Shown: positions 2,419 to 27,055 of the stretch, in pieces
Position numbering within the stretch: position 1 is the first letter of the stretch
Layout of the letters: every line of letters begins with the position of its first letter
Position numbers and translations under genes: made by a program
Assembly: GCF_011927785.1 (NCBI RefSeq)
Contig: NZ_JAATJK010000001.1
Span: forward strand, 4,869,001 to 4,933,000
DNA from: Micromonospora profundi
Lineage (GTDB): Bacteria; Actinomycetota; Actinomycetes; Mycobacteriales; Micromonosporaceae
Direction: 5' to 3'
DNA: 64,000 bases
The notes under the pieces: model-generated
Seen by the model: the letters and a program-made list of their open reading frames with translations, nothing else
Databases searched by the model: none
What the model was told of the DNA's origin: nothing

Positions 2419-2907
2419 TCAGCTCGCCCGGGGCCAGCGCGGCGCGGTGACGGGGGGAGTCACCGGCCGGCCAGCGACTGTCGGTCGTACCCCGGGGGGA
2501 GCGACCCGCGCGGCCTGGTGCCGCGTCGGCAGACCGGCACGACCTGGTGGCGGGGCCGGGTATCCGGCCGTCGCGGGCCGGGAGGCGGCGGGACGCGCGG
2601 GCGACGGCCCGGTCGCGGTGAACGGAAAGGGCACGTGTACGAACGGATTGCCGTGCCGGATGAGCGCCTCGATCTGCCGCTCGTTGAGCCCGTGCGCCTC
2701 CAGCACCCGCCGCCCCCAGCGGTGCAGGCGGCAGGGGTACGAGGCCCCGTCGTTGCGGCACAGCGGCCCGGTCGGCCACTCCTCGGCGGTGTGCACGACC
2801 ACCGCCCGGACCGCGAGCCGGACGTCCTCGGGTGTCAGCGGCGCCGGCATCGGCACCTCACCCAGTACCTGGTCGATGGGATCCGTCGACTGCTCACCAA
2901 CTCGCAC
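2419..2907 (-). CDS. Small two-cysteine protein with disordered Pro-rich tail
   Basis: 162 residues from GTG 2907, preceded by GGGAGG at 6-nt spacing. Function unknown. The first ~85 residues form a compact domain with LAVRAVVVHTAEEWPTGPLC, then YPCRLHRWGRRVLEAHGL. The C-terminal half is Pro/Ala/Arg-rich and probably disordered. The folded part is clearly paralogous to the 77-residue protein at 24500-24733, sharing RAV.VH..E.WP.G.LCR and the FPCRL.RWG block, including both cysteines. The other copy leads an operon with globin- and flavohemoglobin-like genes. Two conserved Cys with a conserved His suggest a metal, heme or redox role, which is inference. This copy appears monocistronic. Confidence 0.6.
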   Translation of the reverse strand: MRVGEQSTDPIDQVLGEVPMPAPLTPEDVRLAVRAVVVHTAEEWPTGPLCRNDGASYPCRLHRWGRRVLEAHGLNERQIEALIRHGNPFVHVPFPFTATGPSPARPAASRPATAGYPAPPPGRAGLPTRHQAARVAPPGVRPTVAGRPVTPPVTAPRWPRAS

Positions 2908-3073: not shown

Positions 3074-3799
3074 TCAGACCAGGCCGGCGTCGTGCACCAG
3101 CAGGGCCACCTGGACCCGGTTGTTGAGGTCGAGCCGGGTCAACAGCCGCGAGACGTACGCCTTCACAGTGGCCACGCTCATGAACAGCTCCCCCGCGATC
3201 TCCGCGTTGGTGCGCCCCTGCCCCAGCGCGACAGCCACCTGCCGCTCCCGCTCGCTGAGATCGGCCAGCAGCCGCAGCGCCCGCTCCCGGCGCGGGTCCC
3301 GGCCGACCGGACCGGAGACGGCGGCGGCGGTCACGTGGTCGATCAACGTCCGGGTCACCGTCGGGGAGAGCGTCGCCTCACCGGCAGCCACCCGGCGTAC
3401 GGCGTGCACGATCTGGGCCGGCGGGGTGTCCTTGAGCAGGAAACCGGCAGCCCCGGCGCGCAGCGCCCGCAGTACCTGCTCGTCGGCGTCGAACGTGGTG
3501 AGCACCAGCACCTCCGGCGGGTGCGGCTGGGCGCGCAGCGCCTCCGTGGCGCTCAGCCCGTCCACCCGTGGCATCCGGATGTCCATCAGCACCACATCCG
3601 GGGCGTACGCGGCGACCGCGGCAGGCACCTCGCTGCCGTCGGCCGCCTCGCCCACCACTGTCAGGTCCGGTAGGCCGCCGAGGATCATCGAGAGCCCGGC
3701 CCGGACCAGCGCGTCGTCGTCCACGATCAGGACCCGCACCGCAGCGGCGGCCGGCTCAGGCCCGCCGGACGGCCCGCTGACGCCGGACGGCCCGCTCAC
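3074..3799 (-). CDS. LuxR/NarL-family response regulator
   Basis: 241 residues. GTG 3799 is chosen because it overlaps the kinase stop codon in a GTGA junction. After a short Gly/Ser/Pro leader comes a receiver domain (VRVLIVDDDALVRAGL, with DVVLMDIRMP containing the phospho-accepting Asp and LVLTTF...LLKD for switch residues). A C-terminal LuxR-type helix-turn-helix follows (LSERERQVAVALGQGRTNAE, then VATVKAYVSRLLTRLDL). It is the cognate regulator of the upstream kinase. The divergent ABC exporter at 5182 is the most likely target, as in many actinobacterial NarL-type systems; that link is inferred from position. Confidence 0.92.
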   Translation of the reverse strand: MSGPSGVSGPSGGPEPAAAAVRVLIVDDDALVRAGLSMILGGLPDLTVVGEAADGSEVPAAVAAYAPDVVLMDIRMPRVDGLSATEALRAQPHPPEVLVLTTFDADEQVLRALRAGAAGFLLKDTPPAQIVHAVRRVAAGEATLSPTVTRTLIDHVTAAAVSGPVGRDPRRERALRLLADLSERERQVAVALGQGRTNAEIAGELFMSVATVKAYVSRLLTRLDLNNRVQVALLVHDAGLV

Positions 3800-5049
3800 G
3801 CCGGCCACGGCAGCCAGGCGGCCAGCCGGAAGTCGCCCGCCTCGTCGCGCCCGTACGCCACTCGGCCGCCGGCCAGGGTGACCCGCTCGGTGATGCCGAC
3901 CAGCCCGGTGCCGGCGCCCGGCAACTCGCCGCCGGTGGGTCCACCCACCGGCCACCGGTTGGAGATCACCACGGTCAGCCCGGTGCCCGGCCCGCCGGCC
4001 ACGTCCACGGTGACCGACGCGCCGGCCGCGTGCTTACGGGCGTTCGTCAGCCCTTCCTGCACGATCCGGTACGCGGCCCGGCCCAGCGCCGCCGGAACCT
4101 TCCCCGCGTCGACGACGCTGTCGCTGACGTTCACCCGCACCCCGGCCGCCCGCGACTCGGCGATCAGGGCGGGCAGGTCGGCGAGGGTGGGTTGCGGCGG
4201 CTCCGGCGCATCGCTGCCGCTGTCACCTTCGGCCCGGAGCACGCCGATGACCTCCCGCAGGTCCTGGAGGGCGGCGTGTGCGCTGTCCCGGATCACTCCG
4301 GCCGCCCGGGCCACCTCGTCCGAGGGCGCGTCGGGGCGGAACTCCAACGCGCCCGCGTGCAGGCTGAGCAGGGAGATCCGGTGGGCCAGCACGTCGTGCA
4401 TCTCCCGGGCGATCCGGGTCCGCTCGAGGTGGCGGGCCTGGGCGACGCGGAGCTGCTGCTCGGCCTCCGCCCGCTCGGCCCGGTCGCGCAGCGACACGAT
4501 CAACTGCCGCCGGGCGCGGACGAACATTCCCCAGGCCAGCACGGCGAGGGTGATCACCACGCCCCAGGTCACTGTGCCCCAGTACGGCATGTTCGGATCC
4601 GGACGGGTCCAGCTGAAGACCAGGTTGGTGAGGAGACCCACCCCGGTCACCGCCACCGCGACGGCGGTCCGCCGGTGCACCACGAGGGTGAAATAGAAGA
4701 TCAACAGCGGGATGGAGGCTGCCATCGAGAACAGGTTCAGCGGCAGCGTCGCCACCGCCAACCCCAGCGGCCACCGCCGACGCAGCCAGAGCAGCGCACA
4801 GCAGGCCAGCCCGATCAGCGCGTCCGCGCCCACCATCCAGTCGTACGGCAGCGATGTCGCCGCCTGCGGATTGGGCGACAGCGCGTCCACGGTGACGTAC
4901 AGCACCCAGAGCAGGCTGAGCAGGAACGCGAGGCTGTCCACCACCCAGTCGCGGGTCGTACGGCGCAGACGCGCCCGGTCCGGCTCGGCCGGCACCACCA
5001 GCTCCCCTGGCAGCAGCCACGGGTGCTCGGGGACGGCGATGCTGGTCAC
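3796..5049 (-). CDS. Sensor histidine kinase, HisKA_3/NarX-like
   Basis: 417 residues from GTG 5049. The N-terminal ~170 residues hold about five hydrophobic membrane spans with little extracytoplasmic sequence, suggesting intramembrane or envelope sensing. The dimerisation/phosphoacceptor region reads RTRIAREMHDVLAHRISLLS, with the phosphorylated His in MHDVLAH. The HATPase_c domain shows the N-box (IVQEGLTNARKHA) and a G-box (GTGLVGITERV). The gene overlaps its response regulator by 4 nt, so the pair is translationally coupled. It is transcribed divergently from the ABC exporter starting at 5182, with 132 nt between them. Confidence 0.92.
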   Translation of the reverse strand: MTSIAVPEHPWLLPGELVVPAEPDRARLRRTTRDWVVDSLAFLLSLLWVLYVTVDALSPNPQAATSLPYDWMVGADALIGLACCALLWLRRRWPLGLAVATLPLNLFSMAASIPLLIFYFTLVVHRRTAVAVAVTGVGLLTNLVFSWTRPDPNMPYWGTVTWGVVITLAVLAWGMFVRARRQLIVSLRDRAERAEAEQQLRVAQARHLERTRIAREMHDVLAHRISLLSLHAGALEFRPDAPSDEVARAAGVIRDSAHAALQDLREVIGVLRAEGDSGSDAPEPPQPTLADLPALIAESRAAGVRVNVSDSVVDAGKVPAALGRAAYRIVQEGLTNARKHAAGASVTVDVAGGPGTGLTVVISNRWPVGGPTGGELPGAGTGLVGITERVTLAGGRVAYGRDEAGDFRLAAWLPWPA

Positions 5050-5181
5050 GCGCCCATGCTAGGCAGCAACAGGCGCCGGCAACCAGCTACCAAAGTCGAG
5101 ACCCGCAGGTCGACCAAAGTCGGCGCGGCACCGACCGCCGGCCGCAGCGGATGGCCGGGTGGCGCGGGCAGGCTCAACCGC

Positions 5182-6078
5182 ATGATCACCGTGGAGAACC
5201 TCACCAAACGGTACGGGCCACACCCGGCCGTGGACGACGTGTCGTTCCAGTGCGAACCGGGCACCGTCACCGGCTTCCTCGGGCCCAACGGGGCCGGCAA
5301 GTCCACCACCATGCGGATGATCTGTGGGCTCACCGCGCCGACCGCCGGCCGCGCCACCGTCTCCGGGCACCTCTACCGGGACCTGCCCAACCCGGGACGG
5401 GAGGTCGGGGTGCTGCTGGACGCCTCCGCCCAGCACGCCGGGCGCACCGGCCGCGAGGCGTTGACGCTTTCCGCGTACACGATGGGGTTGGACCGGCGTG
5501 AGGTCGCCGCGAAGCTCGACCTGGTCGGGTTGAACACGGTGGCCGCCAAGCGGCGGCTGAAGGCGTACTCGTTGGGCATGCGGCAGCGGCTCGGCCTGGC
5601 GCACGCGCTGCTCGGTGACCCCCGGGTGTTGATCCTCGACGAGCCGGCCAACGGACTGGACCCGGAGGGGATCTTCTGGATGCGCGGCCTGCTGCGCGAC
5701 TTCGCCGACCGGGGCGGCACCGTGCTGCTCTCCTCCCACCTGCTGCGCGAGGTGGAAGCGGTGGCGGACCGGCTCGTGGTTATCGGGGGCGGCCGGATCG
5801 TGGCCCAGGGCAGCAAGGACGAGCTGCTGGCCGGCGGCGGAACTGTGGTGCGGGCCCGCGACGGCGCGGCGCTGCGCCGGGCGCTGGACGCCGCCGACCT
5901 GACCGCCGCCGAGAGTGCCGACGGCCTGCTCGTGCAGGCCGACGCCGAGGTGGTCGGCCAGGCCGCGGCCGACGCCGGCGTCGCGCTCGCCGAGCTGCGC
6001 CCCGCCGGCGGCGGTGGCCTCGAACAACTCTTCCTCACGCTCACCGCCGGGGAATCCACCAAGGAGGCCGTCCGATGA
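5182..6078 (+). CDS. ABC transporter ATP-binding protein (export type)
   Basis: 298 residues from ATG 5182, the first start giving a canonical N-terminus (MITVENLTKRYGPHPAVDDV). Motifs in order: Walker A GPNGAGKST, Q-loop region near VGVLLDAS, signature YSLGMRQRLGLA, Walker B VLILDEPANGLDPEG, and the H-loop SSHLL. The C-terminal ~80 residues are the variable domain seen in bacitracin/drug-type exporters. It pairs with the permease at 6075 (ATGA overlap). The adjoining two-component system probably controls it. Substrate unknown; antibiotic-peptide or lipid export are the usual roles. Confidence 0.92.
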   Translation: MITVENLTKRYGPHPAVDDVSFQCEPGTVTGFLGPNGAGKSTTMRMICGLTAPTAGRATVSGHLYRDLPNPGREVGVLLDASAQHAGRTGREALTLSAYTMGLDRREVAAKLDLVGLNTVAAKRRLKAYSLGMRQRLGLAHALLGDPRVLILDEPANGLDPEGIFWMRGLLRDFADRGGTVLLSSHLLREVEAVADRLVVIGGGRIVAQGSKDELLAGGGTVVRARDGAALRRALDAADLTAAESADGLLVQADAEVVGQAAADAGVALAELRPAGGGGLEQLFLTLTAGESTKEAVR

Positions 6079-22885: not shown

Positions 22886-23155
22886 TCAGTCCACCTCGCA
22901 TCTATCTACCCGGGGTGCGGCGCTGGTGGTCTGCCAGGCGCGTAGGGCGTTCTTGATCCGCTCGTTCTCGGCGTGCACCTGGTGCAGTTGACGCGACAGC
23001 TCTCCCAGCTCATAGGCGAGCCGGTCCAGGAGCGCGTGCACGTCGTCGGGCCGGTAGCCCCGCCGCCCGTACCGGGTAAGGGGAAGCGTCACGTCACGGA
23101 CGCAGCTCGGGGTGAGCGGCCCGGTCAGCGGCCTCCGACTGCGGTAGACCGTCAT
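22886..23155 (-). CDS. Short DivIVA-domain protein
   Basis: 89 residues. The segment LPLTRYGRRGYRPDDVHALL carries the RGY..DDV signature of the DivIVA N-terminal membrane-targeting domain, followed by a single coiled coil (LAYELGELSRQLHQVHAENE). It lacks the long C-terminal coiled coil of true Wag31/DivIVA. Its ATG overlaps the stop codon of the flavohemoglobin-like gene (ATGA). It is the last gene of a four-gene coupled operon, so it may anchor or oligomerise the upstream proteins; that is inference. Confidence 0.72.
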   Translation of the reverse strand: MTVYRSRRPLTGPLTPSCVRDVTLPLTRYGRRGYRPDDVHALLDRLAYELGELSRQLHQVHAENERIKNALRAWQTTSAAPRVDRCEVD

Positions 23156-24216
23156 AGCGTCACGGGGAGGCGGATGCGGGCGGCCGGCACTCCGGCGGCG
23201 AGTAGTCGTAGCCGCGCACCGGCGAGCATCAGCGGCGGACCGCAGGCGTACACCGTCTGCGAGGCAGCGTGGTGCTGGAGGGCGACGGTGAGGGCGTCAC
23301 CCTGCTCAGCCGGCTCCGCGCAGGGGTCGTGCGAGAACGCCGGTACGACGGTCAGCCAGCCGTGGGCGCGTTGCAGCTTGTCGAGGGTGATGGCGTCGTA
23401 CAGGTCGGTGAAGGTGCGGGCGCCGACGACGAGCGTCACCTGCCGGCCGTCGGGGGCGGCGGCGATGTGTTCGACCAGGGCGCGCAGCGGCGCCAGGCCG
23501 GTGCCACCGGCGATGAGCAACAGATCCCGGGTACGCGCCGAATCCAGGCACAGGCCGGTGTTGGCGGGTGGGCCGAGCCAGAGCAACTCGCCGGGGCGTA
23601 CCTCATGAACGAGGTGGTGGGAGACGGTGCCGGCGGGTACGGCGCGGACGTGCATTTCGACGGTGCCGTCGGCGCGTGGGGCGTTGGCCGGGGAGAGCCA
23701 GCGCCAACGTCCGGGCATGCGTGGTGTGCAGACCGGGACGGCCTGGCCGGGCTGGTGGGGCAGGCGCCGCCAGGGACGTACCGTCAGAATGGCGACGCCG
23801 GGCGATGGCCGTTCGTGGCCGATCACCTGGGCTGGCCACCAGGCCGGGCCGACTCCGACGCGGGCGGCGGCGCGACGCACGGCGTGCGTGGCGCGGTCCA
23901 CCGCGCGCTCCCCGGCGAAGGCGAGTGGCGGTGTCCATAGTGGGTGGCCATGCCGGGCCACCGTCGCGAGCAGCGCGTCACCGATGGTGAGGGCGTGTGG
24001 GAGCAGGTCATAGCACCGGTACGCGCGGCCGAGCACCACCAGCAGCGCCGCCCGGCCCGCCCGGTCGTCGCTACCGAGCATGAGCTGACCCAGCGCGTGG
24101 AAGAGAAGCGGTGCCACCCGTTCGGGAACCAGCCCGGGACTCCGATCCTCCATGGTGCGCCAGAAGTCACCGGCGGCCCGGTCGTCGACCGACGCCCACG
24201 CGTCAGCGAGGTTCAC
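23152..24216 (-). CDS. Flavohemoglobin-like FAD/NAD reductase lacking the proximal heme His
   Basis: 354 residues from GTG 24216, which overlaps the preceding stop in a GTGA junction. Residues 1-120 align with a globin domain (FWRTMEDRSPGLVPERVAPL, then GRAYRCYDLLPHALTIGDAL and an AW/AG..AV region). Where flavohemoglobins have the F8 histidine in R-D-H-R, this protein has R-A-Y-R (Tyr66). The rest is a ferredoxin-NADP-reductase module: FAD-binding RWRWLSPANAP, NAD site LLLIAGGTGLAPLRALVEH and TVYACGPPLML. It should transfer electrons from NAD(P)H, but classical NO-dioxygenase chemistry is doubtful without the His. Operon partner of a truncated globin with a similar loss. Confidence 0.78.
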   Translation of the reverse strand: MNLADAWASVDDRAAGDFWRTMEDRSPGLVPERVAPLLFHALGQLMLGSDDRAGRAALLVVLGRAYRCYDLLPHALTIGDALLATVARHGHPLWTPPLAFAGERAVDRATHAVRRAAARVGVGPAWWPAQVIGHERPSPGVAILTVRPWRRLPHQPGQAVPVCTPRMPGRWRWLSPANAPRADGTVEMHVRAVPAGTVSHHLVHEVRPGELLWLGPPANTGLCLDSARTRDLLLIAGGTGLAPLRALVEHIAAAPDGRQVTLVVGARTFTDLYDAITLDKLQRAHGWLTVVPAFSHDPCAEPAEQGDALTVALQHHAASQTVYACGPPLMLAGARLRLLAAGVPAARIRLPVTL

Positions 24217-24503
24217 GCGGGCACCTCGAACGCCCGCCGCACCCGGGCGACCTGGTCGTCCGGCAACTCGGCCGCCCACAGCACCCCCATCAGGTAGTCG
24301 ACGACCCTCCGATGCTGCGCCTCCGACAACCCCAGGCCCTGCCAGCCGTCCACCGCCGCCGGCCTGCCATCGAGCGCGTTCGCCAGGCCCGCAGTGAGGT
24401 GCGCGCCGAGCCGGCCCAGGTCAACCCCGATGAGGTACGGCGACAGCTCCGCGTCCGCCACGACGAGCCGCAGCCACCGGCCGACCGCCTCTCCTGGTGT
24501 CAT
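24213..24503 (-). CDS. Truncated-hemoglobin-like protein with degenerate heme site
   Basis: 96 residues, coupled to both neighbours by 4-nt overlaps. It aligns by eye along its length with group I truncated hemoglobins: VVADAELSPYLIGVDLGRL parallels VLADDQLSAFFSGTNMSRL, and the C-terminal VVDYLMGVLWAAELPDDQVA parallels the H-helix region. At the F8 position, where trHbN has HQGRGI, this protein has WQGLGL (Trp54), and the B10 Tyr position is Leu. Heme binding in the usual way is therefore unlikely. It may be a heme-free regulatory globin fold. The assignment rests on remembered trHbN sequence. Confidence 0.6.
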   Translation of the reverse strand: MTPGEAVGRWLRLVVADAELSPYLIGVDLGRLGAHLTAGLANALDGRPAAVDGWQGLGLSEAQHRRVVDYLMGVLWAAELPDDQVARVRRAFEVPA

Positions 24504-24733
24504 GCGGTCGGCTCCTGGCCGAGCTGACGCTGCGCCTCGCTGAAGCCGGCGGCTTCCAGGGTCGCCCACCCCCAGCGGGCGAGCCGGCAGGGGAACGGGA
24601 CGCGTTCGCTGCGGCACAACTCGCCGTGCGGCCAGCTCTCGGGAACGTGGACGGTGACCGCCCGCAGGGCGATGCACAGGTCCTCGTCGGTGACGGGCGT
24701 GAGGACCGGGAAGTCGTCGATCACTGTGGGCAT
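24500..24733 (-). CDS. Small two-cysteine protein, first gene of the globin-like operon
   Basis: 77 residues from ATG 24733 (GGAG upstream); the longer frame is discarded. Function unknown. It is paralogous to the N-terminal domain of the protein at 2419-2907: ALRAVTVHVPESWPHGELCR and VPFPCRLARWGWATLEAAGF are shared almost block for block, including His, two Cys and the RWG motif, but the Pro-rich tail is absent. It overlaps the truncated-globin gene by ATGA. First gene of a coupled operon of four (small Cys protein, globin, reductase, DivIVA-like). Confidence 0.7.
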   Translation of the reverse strand: MPTVIDDFPVLTPVTDEDLCIALRAVTVHVPESWPHGELCRSERVPFPCRLARWGWATLEAAGFSEAQRQLGQEPTA

Positions 24734-24952
24734 GCCGGCTCCGAGACGTTGACGGATGAAGCGGCACCGGGGCGGGCGGGAGCGGAGCTGCGCCGTTCGG
24801 GTCGGCGCAGCTTCGGAGCCAGCACCCGCCCCGGGCCATGCGTCGACTTTCGTGGTTGACCAGGTACGCCGGTATGACCCCGTGATCGTCGAGAGCATGC
24901 GCGCTCGGTATGCGCTCGACTACGCGCCATCTCGGTTGGGCAGACTGCAGGC

Positions 24953-25471
24953 ATGACGGAACGCCCGGTGCTGTATCTGGTCGTCTGCGCCGCGGGTCCG
25001 GCGGAACACATCCACGAGCTGGTCGATCTGCTGATCGCCGACGGATGGCGGGTGTGCCTGATCGTCAGCCCCACCGCCGCGCCGTGGCTCGACCGAGAGG
25101 CCTTGAAAGACAAGACCGGCTATCTCGTACGCGTGGAGTGGCGGATGCCCGGCGACCCCGAGCCACACCCGCCGGCCGACGCGGTGCTGGCCGCACCGGT
25201 CACGTTCAACACGATCGCGAAGTGGGCGCTGGGCATCAACGACACGTTGGCGCTCGGCATCCTCAACGAATCGCTGGGGGCGGGTCTACCGATCCTCGCC
25301 GTCCCGCACGTCAAGGCGGAGTTGGCCGCGCACCCGGCGTACGCCGGCCATCTGGCAGTGCTGCGCGGCGCTGGCGTGCACGTCGCTGACGGGAAGGTGC
25401 TGGACCTGGCACACGGGCCGGCTCGGTGGACCGTGGTCATCGAGGCGCTGCGCTCAATACGTCAGCCCTGA
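24953..25471 (+). CDS. Flavoprotein of the PPC-decarboxylase (HFCD) fold
   Basis: 172 residues. It starts with VLYLVVCAAGPAEHIHELVD, followed by ADGWRVCLIVSPTAAPWLD; the middle has ADAVLAAPVTFNTIAKWALG and INDTLALGILNESL, the N-A-like and FMN-contacting segments of homo-oligomeric flavin-containing Cys decarboxylases. The family decarboxylates C-terminal or pantothenoyl cysteines, but also includes other flavin-dependent enzymes. It is not the CoaBC housekeeping enzyme, as the synthetase half is absent. Divergent from the globin-like operon, with 219 nt between them. Confidence 0.82.
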   Translation: MTERPVLYLVVCAAGPAEHIHELVDLLIADGWRVCLIVSPTAAPWLDREALKDKTGYLVRVEWRMPGDPEPHPPADAVLAAPVTFNTIAKWALGINDTLALGILNESLGAGLPILAVPHVKAELAAHPAYAGHLAVLRGAGVHVADGKVLDLAHGPARWTVVIEALRSIRQP

Positions 25472-25552: not shown

Positions 25553-27055
25553 ATGGACAGGCTTGATGAGGCGAGACGGATGGAGCCGCCGGTGACACCT
25601 GCGGACTGCCCCCGGTGCGGCGGACGGCTGGCCCGGGACAACGACAGCGGACGGTGCACGCCGTGCCAGGCCGCCGAACGCGACCGGCTGAGCGCACCGC
25701 CGGTGGTGCCGGCGAGCTTCTGGGACCATGAGCCGGTCCGGCGGGCGCTGGCAGAACGGCATCTCGGGCGGATGGTCAGGGCTTACCGCTGCCATCCGTA
25801 CCACGGGCGGGTCGCCTTGCCGCAGACCGTGGTGGCGGGCTGGCTGGGGATCACGCAGGCGCAGTTGAGTCGAGTGGAGAACGGGCCGCCGCTGGTGCAC
25901 CTGGACCGACTGGCGCACTGGGCTCAGGTGCTCCACATCCCCGAGGCGCACCTTTGGTTCGCGCTCCCTGGTCGAACTCACCGAGCGAATGAGCACGGTC
26001 AAGCCGCCAGTAGCACCTCAGTCGCGCCTCGAAGTGGCGGACCCGATGAAGGTAGGCGGACGCTGCTGGCCGGCATCGCCGCTGTGGCCGCAGGCGCTGG
26101 GCTGCTGGGAAGCACCGAGATCGTTCAACCCCGACGCGTCGGCGCTGCCGATGTCGCTCGACTGAACGCGGTCCTGGAGCTTTACCGTTCCGTCGATTAC
26201 GAATGCGGCGGCGGCCTGTTGTACCGGGAGGTGGCCCGGTTCGCCGAGTCGGTATACCGGATGCTCGACTGGTCGCACCCAGCCGGGCTTACCCCGCGCC
26301 TCGTCGCGGCGGTGGCGGCAGCTCGGCATCTGGCGGGGTGGACCGCTCTCGACGCAGGCCGGCATGCTGACGCGCAGCGGCACTTCGTGGCCGGCGAGCG
26401 GGCCGCGCTGACGGCCGGGGACGTGCCGCTGGCCGCGATGATTCGGTACTCACAGGCCAAACAGCTTCAACACCTACGGCACAACCGGGACGCACTCGTA
26501 ACGCTGCAACTCGCTCATGCGCAGCTCGGGCCGCACGCAACCCCGGCAGTCGAGGCCCTGCTCTTTGGCGCGGAAGCCGCCTCGATTGCCGCGCTCGGGG
26601 ATCACCAGCGCGCAGTAACCACCCTCGGCAAGGCAAGCGACGCGTTCGAGCGCATCCAGAACGAGCGTGAGCCGAATTGGATGAGCTTCTACGACCAGGG
26701 CGAGCTGTTCGCTCAGTACGGCCGTGTCTACCGAGACAGGGCGCGGCGAGATAGCGGACAGGCATCCGAAGCGGTGCGGTGGGTTGAGGATGCCATCGCC
26801 GCATTCGGTCCGGCGAACGTGCGAAGCACAGTGCTGAACGAGGTTGGCCTGTGCAGCGCGTTGTTCCTCGCCGACGAGCCCGAGCAGGCGCTCGCGGTCG
26901 GTGCCAGGGTGGTGAAGAAGTCGCAGGCGATGAGCTCCAAACGGGTGGTCGATCGAGTCGTCAATCTGCGTCGCGATCTCGCTCGGCATCGGGCGCTGCC
27001 CGAGGTGGCCGAGTTCGATCGCGTGTTAACGGCTCGGGCTGCGGCAGCAGTATGA
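25553..27055 (+). CDS. Zinc-ribbon/XRE/TPR transcriptional regulator
   Basis: 500 residues from ATG 25553 (ATG 25580 is a possible alternative). Order of domains: a zinc ribbon (CPRCGGRL and CTPC, residues about 20-38), an XRE-type HTH (VVAGWLGITQAQLSRVENG, about 93-111), a short hydrophobic stretch (LLAGIAAVAAGAGLLG) and a C-terminal TPR-like helical region from about 205 to the end. This architecture is common in Streptomyces and Micromonospora, where the TPR part is thought to sense a peptide or partner. Its stop overlaps the phosphotransferase start (ATGA), so the two are coupled. GC content seems lower toward its 3' end. Confidence 0.82.
   Translation: MDRLDEARRMEPPVTPADCPRCGGRLARDNDSGRCTPCQAAERDRLSAPPVVPASFWDHEPVRRALAERHLGRMVRAYRCHPYHGRVALPQTVVAGWLGITQAQLSRVENGPPLVHLDRLAHWAQVLHIPEAHLWFALPGRTHRANEHGQAASSTSVAPRSGGPDEGRRTLLAGIAAVAAGAGLLGSTEIVQPRRVGAADVARLNAVLELYRSVDYECGGGLLYREVARFAESVYRMLDWSHPAGLTPRLVAAVAAARHLAGWTALDAGRHADAQRHFVAGERAALTAGDVPLAAMIRYSQAKQLQHLRHNRDALVTLQLAHAQLGPHATPAVEALLFGAEAASIAALGDHQRAVTTLGKASDAFERIQNEREPNWMSFYDQGELFAQYGRVYRDRARRDSGQASEAVRWVEDAIAAFGPANVRSTVLNEVGLCSALFLADEPEQALAVGARVVKKSQAMSSKRVVDRVVNLRRDLARHRALPEVAEFDRVLTARAAAAV

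Follow-up and report, generated by a model that had tools for sequence, protein, structure and literature searches.

The E. coli flavohaemoglobin Hmp joins a globin to an FAD/NAD reductase and carries a histidine at F8, a tyrosine at B10 and a phenylalanine in the CD region. In the M-type haemoglobins, in which the F8 histidine is changed to tyrosine, the haem is held as ferric tyrosinate, and in cyanobacterial GlbN the E10 histidine is the distal ligand. Globin folds are also used without haem, as in the RsbR-type non-haem globins, for which we know of neither a coupling to a flavin reductase nor a pairing with a second ligand-less globin. The locus analyzed here lies in a stretch of 64,000 nucleotides of Micromonospora profundi DNA (the window), where two different globin types are found in one operon, the haem ligand has been lost in both and the reductase is retained. 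This joint loss of the F8 histidine had been claimed in the initial annotation and proved to be common to relatives of the two proteins. With non-haem globins such as RsbR, the products of genes 2 and 3 of the operon would share a haem-free globin fold, as their residues suggest. Type II flavohaemoglobins of the Actinobacteria are described as diverged flavohaemoglobin duplicates with other functions (PMC6950321). Gene 3 is also a diverged flavohaemoglobin duplicate; the description of the type II proteins concerns D-lactate metabolism and not ligand loss (PMC6950321). Non-haem globins and duplicated actinobacterial flavohaemoglobins are already known kinds of protein. A literature search of titles and abstracts, covering few subscription journals, returned no paper on the paired ligand loss, the gene set or the leader described below, a silence that is weak evidence of novelty.

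The operon consists of four minus-strand genes joined by three overlaps of 4 nt each (24500-24503, 24213-24216 and 23152-23155). Such a chain had been annotated before, and its coordinates proved exact when re-read from the window letters. Gene 1 (24500..24733, minus strand), an ORF with 37 homologues, encodes a 77-aa Cys-pair protein that matches no known family. It had been described as a 77-residue two-Cys protein, of which the length stands and the cysteine count does not: three cysteines are present (positions 20, 40 and 49), of which the C-x8-C pair (CRSERVPFPC) recurs among relatives and Cys20 is not constant, being Ser in the related locus L090. Another gene-1-like Cys protein (LCRNDGASYPCRLHRWG) is encoded at 2419-2907 (minus strand) of the window, with no globin genes adjoining in the ORF list, and one more just beyond the window edge (G000:C1:4865470-4865661). 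Gene 2 (24213..24503, minus strand) encodes a shortened group-I truncated-globin-like protein of 96 aa. Gene 3 (23152..24216, minus strand, GTG start), identified by profile and structure matches, encodes a flavohaemoglobin-like protein of 354 aa with a degenerate globin half (about residues 1-120) and an FAD/NAD(P)H reductase half (about residues 125-354). Gene 4 (22886..23155, minus strand) encodes a short protein of 89 aa whose DivIVA N-terminal domain was recognized by TIGR03544 (28.6 bits, cut-off 22), while PF05103 gave 17.2 bits, under its cut-off of 28.

The F8 position of gene 2 is Trp54 (codon 24342..24344, minus strand), which shares an alignment column with the F8 histidine of the canonical paralogues. 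This alignment comprised 36 rows, 29 of them diverged (28 loci, of which L023 and L092 yielded an identical reductase row in the tree, and the window) and seven canonical (six loci and a repeat of L089). F8 was Trp in 29/29 diverged separate truncated globins and His in 7/7 canonical ones. B9 was Trp in all 29 diverged rows as well, and B10 was Leu in 28 of the 29 and Tyr in all seven canonical rows; Leu11 of gene 2, opposite this tyrosine, occupies the column that we take to be B10. Both the Trp at F8 and the Leu at B10 had been read correctly in the initial annotation. E10 (His35 in gene 2, codon 24399..24401, minus strand) was His in 36/36 rows, diverged and canonical alike. Conservation of Trp54 also extended to the wider set, where it belonged to the positions kept by 90% or more of the 49 gene-2 homologues that were aligned, out of 63 found; Trp at F8 was missing in some of the forms fused to gene 3 (rows P0176 and P0180). 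Identity between gene 2 and canonical truncated globins was 26-32%, and the gene-2 family profile matched the truncated globin encoded by the canonical operon in this genome (E 2.8e-11). A Pfam scan of gene 2 found no family, and so no PF01152, for which the canonical paralogue scored 70.9 bits. The first Foldseek match of the predicted fold was the group-I truncated haemoglobin HbN of M. tuberculosis (E 1.9e-3, prob 1.00), with no match at E <= 0.001; absence from the list of VIA-align, a re-examination of Foldseek matches, carries no weight. From HbN, which it resembles in predicted fold, gene 2 differs by Trp at F8, Leu at B10 and a shortened N-terminus (96 aa in all).

Gene 3 carries Tyr66 at F8 (codon 24019..24021, minus strand), in the same column as the F8 histidine of canonical flavohaemoglobin paralogues, as had been proposed. 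Among 121 sequences (gene 3 and 120 homologues, those listed of 793), 104 had Tyr here, 8 Trp, 7 His and 2 Cys. Of the 98 diverged rows taken from individual loci, 78 had Tyr, 9 His, 4 Trp and 2 Cys, and the remaining five were gapped at F8 or lacked a globin part that could be aligned. Tyr66 is mostly kept, then, but not strictly conserved, and with four different residues found at F8, tyrosine is not an obligatory ligand. Compared to the canonical paralogue, gene 3 has six residues fewer around the CD region, where the alignment is uncertain, Val opposite the CD-region Phe, Trp in place of TyrB10 and Ala in place of the G5 Tyr. PF00042 (globin) was absent from its Pfam matches, and the FAD and NAD(P)H domains were recognized by PF00970 and PF00175 above their cut-offs. 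The reductase had been called intact, which holds for these two domains and for the NAD motifs (GGTGLAPL and ACGPP) but not for the FAD-side motif, which is R-W-L-S in gene 3 and R-Y-Y-S in the canonical paralogue. The first match of the predicted fold, covering the whole chain, was E. coli Hmp (1gvh), with which gene 3 shares the union of globin and FAD/NAD reductase and from which it differs, as judged via the canonical paralogue, by lacking the F8 His, TyrB10 and the CD-region Phe. The structure predictions proposed in the initial annotation thus placed HbN and Hmp folds first, and the non-His residue at F8 of both proteins comes from sequence alignment.

A second diverged gene-3 copy of this genome (L088, G000:C1:3240000-3250000; 3927-5135, minus strand) has His at F8, is without leader and has no gene-1, gene-2 or gene-4 relative in the surrounding sequence that was fetched. 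In L104, a relative of this copy, F8 is Tyr. In L105, a member of an erosion series, gene 2 is fused to gene 3, and in L106 gene 3 is 276 aa long with its globin part reduced to a stub of a few dozen residues.

The M. profundi genome also holds a canonical operon of truncated globin, flavohaemoglobin and DivIVA genes at about G000:C1 2325490-2327758 (L089, G000:C1:2322000-2333000, local 3491-5759, minus strand). It has the same gene order and homologous proteins, but differs from the window operon in that both F8 histidines are kept, its globins match Pfam (PF01152, PF00042, PF00970 and PF00175 were all above cut-offs) and its DivIVA-like protein is 231 aa long (PF05103 24.3 bits, below the cut-off of 28). 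L089 has no gene 1, and no leader RNA was found there by a leader search allowing up to 4 mismatches. At the level of the class, the L089 flavohaemoglobin as query matched 99/296 genomes at E <= 1e-30, and 28 of the loci returned (L194-L221) were scanned with 1500 bases on each side where the contig allowed. Thirteen of them (L194-L206), which lie outside the window's family and are the closest flavohaemoglobin matches outside its genus among the loci scanned, had a truncated globin upstream and a DivIVA gene downstream of the flavohaemoglobin; L214, from the window's genus, had the DivIVA gene only, and 14 had neither partner within the stretch. F8 was His in 28/28 flavohaemoglobins and 13/13 truncated globins, and one extra row of this count, a truncated globin that the other profile had picked up, had His too. 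The His-bearing trio is thus an old arrangement and the globin pair of the window a derived copy. In a reductase-domain tree, for which the program warned of long branches among the canonical rows, a branch supported at 100/100 set the 98 diverged rows apart from the others; within the diverged clade F8 of gene 3 changed several times, with His in some rows. These comparisons make genes 2 and 3 diverged paralogues of genes in an older actinobacterial operon that encodes a truncated globin, a flavohaemoglobin and a DivIVA-domain protein. The initial annotation had suggested a scaffold role for the DivIVA-like protein, which is conjectural; DivIVA partners accompany canonical His-bearing operons and globin-less operons too. 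Outside the genus, the diverged trio of Trp-F8 truncated globin, reductase and DivIVA was observed in L268 and L269, from one genome of another genus. A plasmid of Micromonospora zamorensis (L190, 2700-5122, plus strand) carries an annotated gene for a nitric oxide synthase oxygenase and, immediately behind it, one for a globin-domain reductase that has His at F8 and is perhaps the electron donor of the oxygenase.

A search of 160 genomes of the genus found a relative of gene 3 in every one at E <= 1e-30, with canonical relatives counted, and in 91 of the 160 the best match reached E <= 1e-80 and was taken as the diverged copy. From the listed matches 100 stretches were fetched, mostly the best-scoring and hence a non-random sample, of which 95 were diverged and five canonical. 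A profile search found all four components at 23 of the 95 diverged loci (gene 2 separate in 9 and fused in 14), gene 2 and the reductase only at 16, the reductase alone at 43 and other mixes at 13, counts in which absences of partner genes may be overstated as some stretches stop near the reductase. Gene 2 was fused to gene 3 at 17/95 diverged loci. With no gene-2 part beside the reductase in over half of the 95, gene 2 is dispensable in many species. The initial annotation had expected the four genes to co-occur as a fixed set, which these frequencies contradict. It had named two findings that would count against it, of which a non-conserved set was observed and a His at F8 of the window proteins was not; of the complex it proposed, a union of gene 2 and gene 3 fits the 17 fusions. 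Canonical, separate, fused and eroded forms coexist in close relatives, so that the steps by which a haem enzyme became a protein that is probably haem-free can be traced. Upstream of the operon, and divergent from it, lie genes for a CoaC-like flavoprotein (24953..25471, plus strand; PF02441) and an NsdA-family regulator (25553..27055, plus strand; profile match), relatives of which were found by single-sequence searches inside the fetched stretch at 35/95 and 28/95 diverged loci, respectively. A defence system was rejected, with no PADLOC match of genes 1-4 and the flavoprotein at E <= 0.01; the NsdA-like regulator had one weak HTH match in PADLOC (20.1 bits).

Selection was assessed by omega, estimated by a simple pairwise method in genomes of high GC content. 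For gene 2, NG86 omega against eight homologues ranged from 0.33 to 0.59, and for canonical truncated globins three pairs gave 0.23-0.32 and a distant fourth pair gave 0.62. The median over ten gene-3 pairs was 0.39 for the globin half and 0.34 for the reductase half. Three canonical flavohaemoglobin pairs of similar dS gave 0.07-0.20 for the globin half and 0.22-0.37 for the reductase half, and a distant fourth pair 0.38 and 0.44. In the three canonical pairs the globin half is under tighter constraint than the reductase half. In the diverged copy it is not, and constraint on it is relaxed yet not absent. Pseudogenes were rejected, as the reading frames are open and omega is below 1.

We consider it probable that the diverged globins serve as a haem-free docking unit attached to an NAD(P)H/FAD reductase that still works. 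Most likely neither of them binds haem, since each pocket was altered at several residues and the alterations persisted: in gene 2, B9, B10 and F8 jointly became Trp, Leu and Trp and were kept so, and in gene 3 B10, the CD-region Phe, G5 and F8 were replaced, the F8 ligand being lost in both. The gene 3 reductase would still oxidise NAD(P)H and pass the hydride to FAD, the globin folds would offer surfaces by which gene 2 docks on gene 3, as the natural fusions suggest, and the flavin electrons would go to an outside acceptor instead of haem, for which the Cys pair of gene 1 is the nearest candidate. Several observations speak against such a unit. The E10 His of all 36 truncated-globin rows could hold haem, nine of the 98 diverged gene-3 rows (one being L088) have His at F8, Trp at F8 is lacking in some fused gene-2 forms and the FAD motif is altered to R-W-L-S; moreover, over half of the 95 loci are without gene 2, for which Foldseek gave no match at E <= 0.001.

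The main rival to the haem-free reading is a differently held haem, bound in gene 2 via E10 His35 and in gene 3 via Tyr66 as ferric tyrosinate, which would make the pair a redox unit or sensor. The invariant E10 His (36/36 rows) and Tyr as the usual gene-3 F8 residue are what this explanation would expect, but E10 His is equally kept where the F8 His is present and may be retained for other reasons, the B9, B10 and F8 positions of gene 2 are Trp, Leu and Trp, the CD Phe of gene 3 is replaced in a region six residues shorter, and F8 of gene 3 is not uniform, with Tyr, His, Trp or Cys in different rows; on balance we regard a differently held haem as unlikely. That the globin parts are functionless vestiges, with selection acting on the reductase alone, is in our view distinctly improbable. 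Many diverged loci are without gene 2, L106 has its globin part cut to a few dozen residues and the globin-half omega (0.39) does not fall below the value for the reductase half (0.34), all in keeping with decay, but no frame is interrupted, both globins have an omega below 1, and Trp at both B9 and F8 is uniform in 29/29 gene-2 rows, which free drift would not yield. The haem-free docking unit would also fall if a true F8 His had been missed elsewhere in one of the proteins. The first alignment was made without database searches and gene 2 is only 26-32% identical to its canonical counterparts; nevertheless, window and canonical F8 share one column in both alignments within conserved surroundings, and the comparison with canonical paralogues leaves a wrong F8 placement very hard to believe.

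Ahead of gene 1 lies a candidate structured leader RNA (24760..24841, minus strand), identified by conservation and folding. Its 5' arm, a stretch of 23 nt (window 24841-24819), is nearly invariant, and sequence farther upstream varies between loci. The arm was present in 75/95 diverged loci with up to 5 mismatches; with up to 4 mismatches it was found neither in the 12 loci of the L088 branch nor in the canonical loci L089, L100-L103 and L188-L191. RNAalifold, applied to 75 of 76 leaders (L099, which is without the 3' arm, was left out), predicted a GC-rich stem of 14 pairs enclosing a variable hairpin. Pair cells were paired in 97.5% of cases, against 41-59% in slid controls. Cells with two-sided changes numbered 90 (shuffled mean 32.0) and the covariation score was 0.207 (0.094 shuffled), in both cases with 0/500 shuffles as high, although these tests are inflated by sequence kinship and by a structure derived from the same alignment. 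The number of pairs with two-sided changes was not unusual (5 against 4.0; 113/500 shuffles), and the covariation support came from four pairs at the hairpin base, the long stem being nearly invariant and of little information. The fold energy of the window leader was low compared to shuffles (z -3.42). Rfam 15 returned only mir-486 for window 24600-25000, at 13.6 bits against a gathering score of 69, and nothing for six other loci.

We infer that the leader RNA may control expression of the operon. Within the window leader, GGCTCCGA is complementary to TCGGAGCC, which lies directly before gene 1. A complement of at least 6 nt to the ribosome-binding site was present in 28 of the 72 leaders in which such a site was recognisable (200 shuffles: mean 6.7, maximum 13), a count inflated by kinship, and missing from the other 44. 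These complements offer a lead towards a possible translation switch, and the leader, if real, provides a route to the signal answered by the system.

The leader model had a single copy in the M. profundi genome at E <= 1, and a motif with many genomic targets was rejected, since the 23-nt arm occurs once in the genome at up to 3 mismatches. In the family the model matched 58/200 genomes at E <= 0.01 (33 of the window's genus and 25 of other genera), the weaker matches being perhaps due to chance, and in the class 2/148 genomes, both of the window's genus. Twenty further leader loci were chosen from model matches for a survey of gene content. A short DivIVA gene lay downstream of the leader in 14/20, seven of these with a gene-1-like Cys protein, five without it and two with truncated globin and reductase; among the rest, one had a truncated-globin-like gene only and five had no such gene. 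From these contents, the Cys protein and short DivIVA protein are the more constant companions of the leader and the globin pair is optional; in other genera of the family the leader lies ahead of operons that encode a Cys protein and a short DivIVA protein but no globin. A module of leader, Cys protein and short DivIVA protein, restricted to the window's family, may have taken up two haem-less globins to become an RNA-controlled, flavin-driven redox switch, a scenario that we put forward tentatively and hold to be rather unlikely as a whole. If true, the switch would be held by two globin folds and act on the Cys protein or a DivIVA scaffold, and the leader would represent a new class of regulatory RNA. 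Between the leader and the first gene, a palindromic repeat of the type GTTAACAAGGGGCCCTTCCT was observed in L178, L171, L127, L096, L143 and L186.
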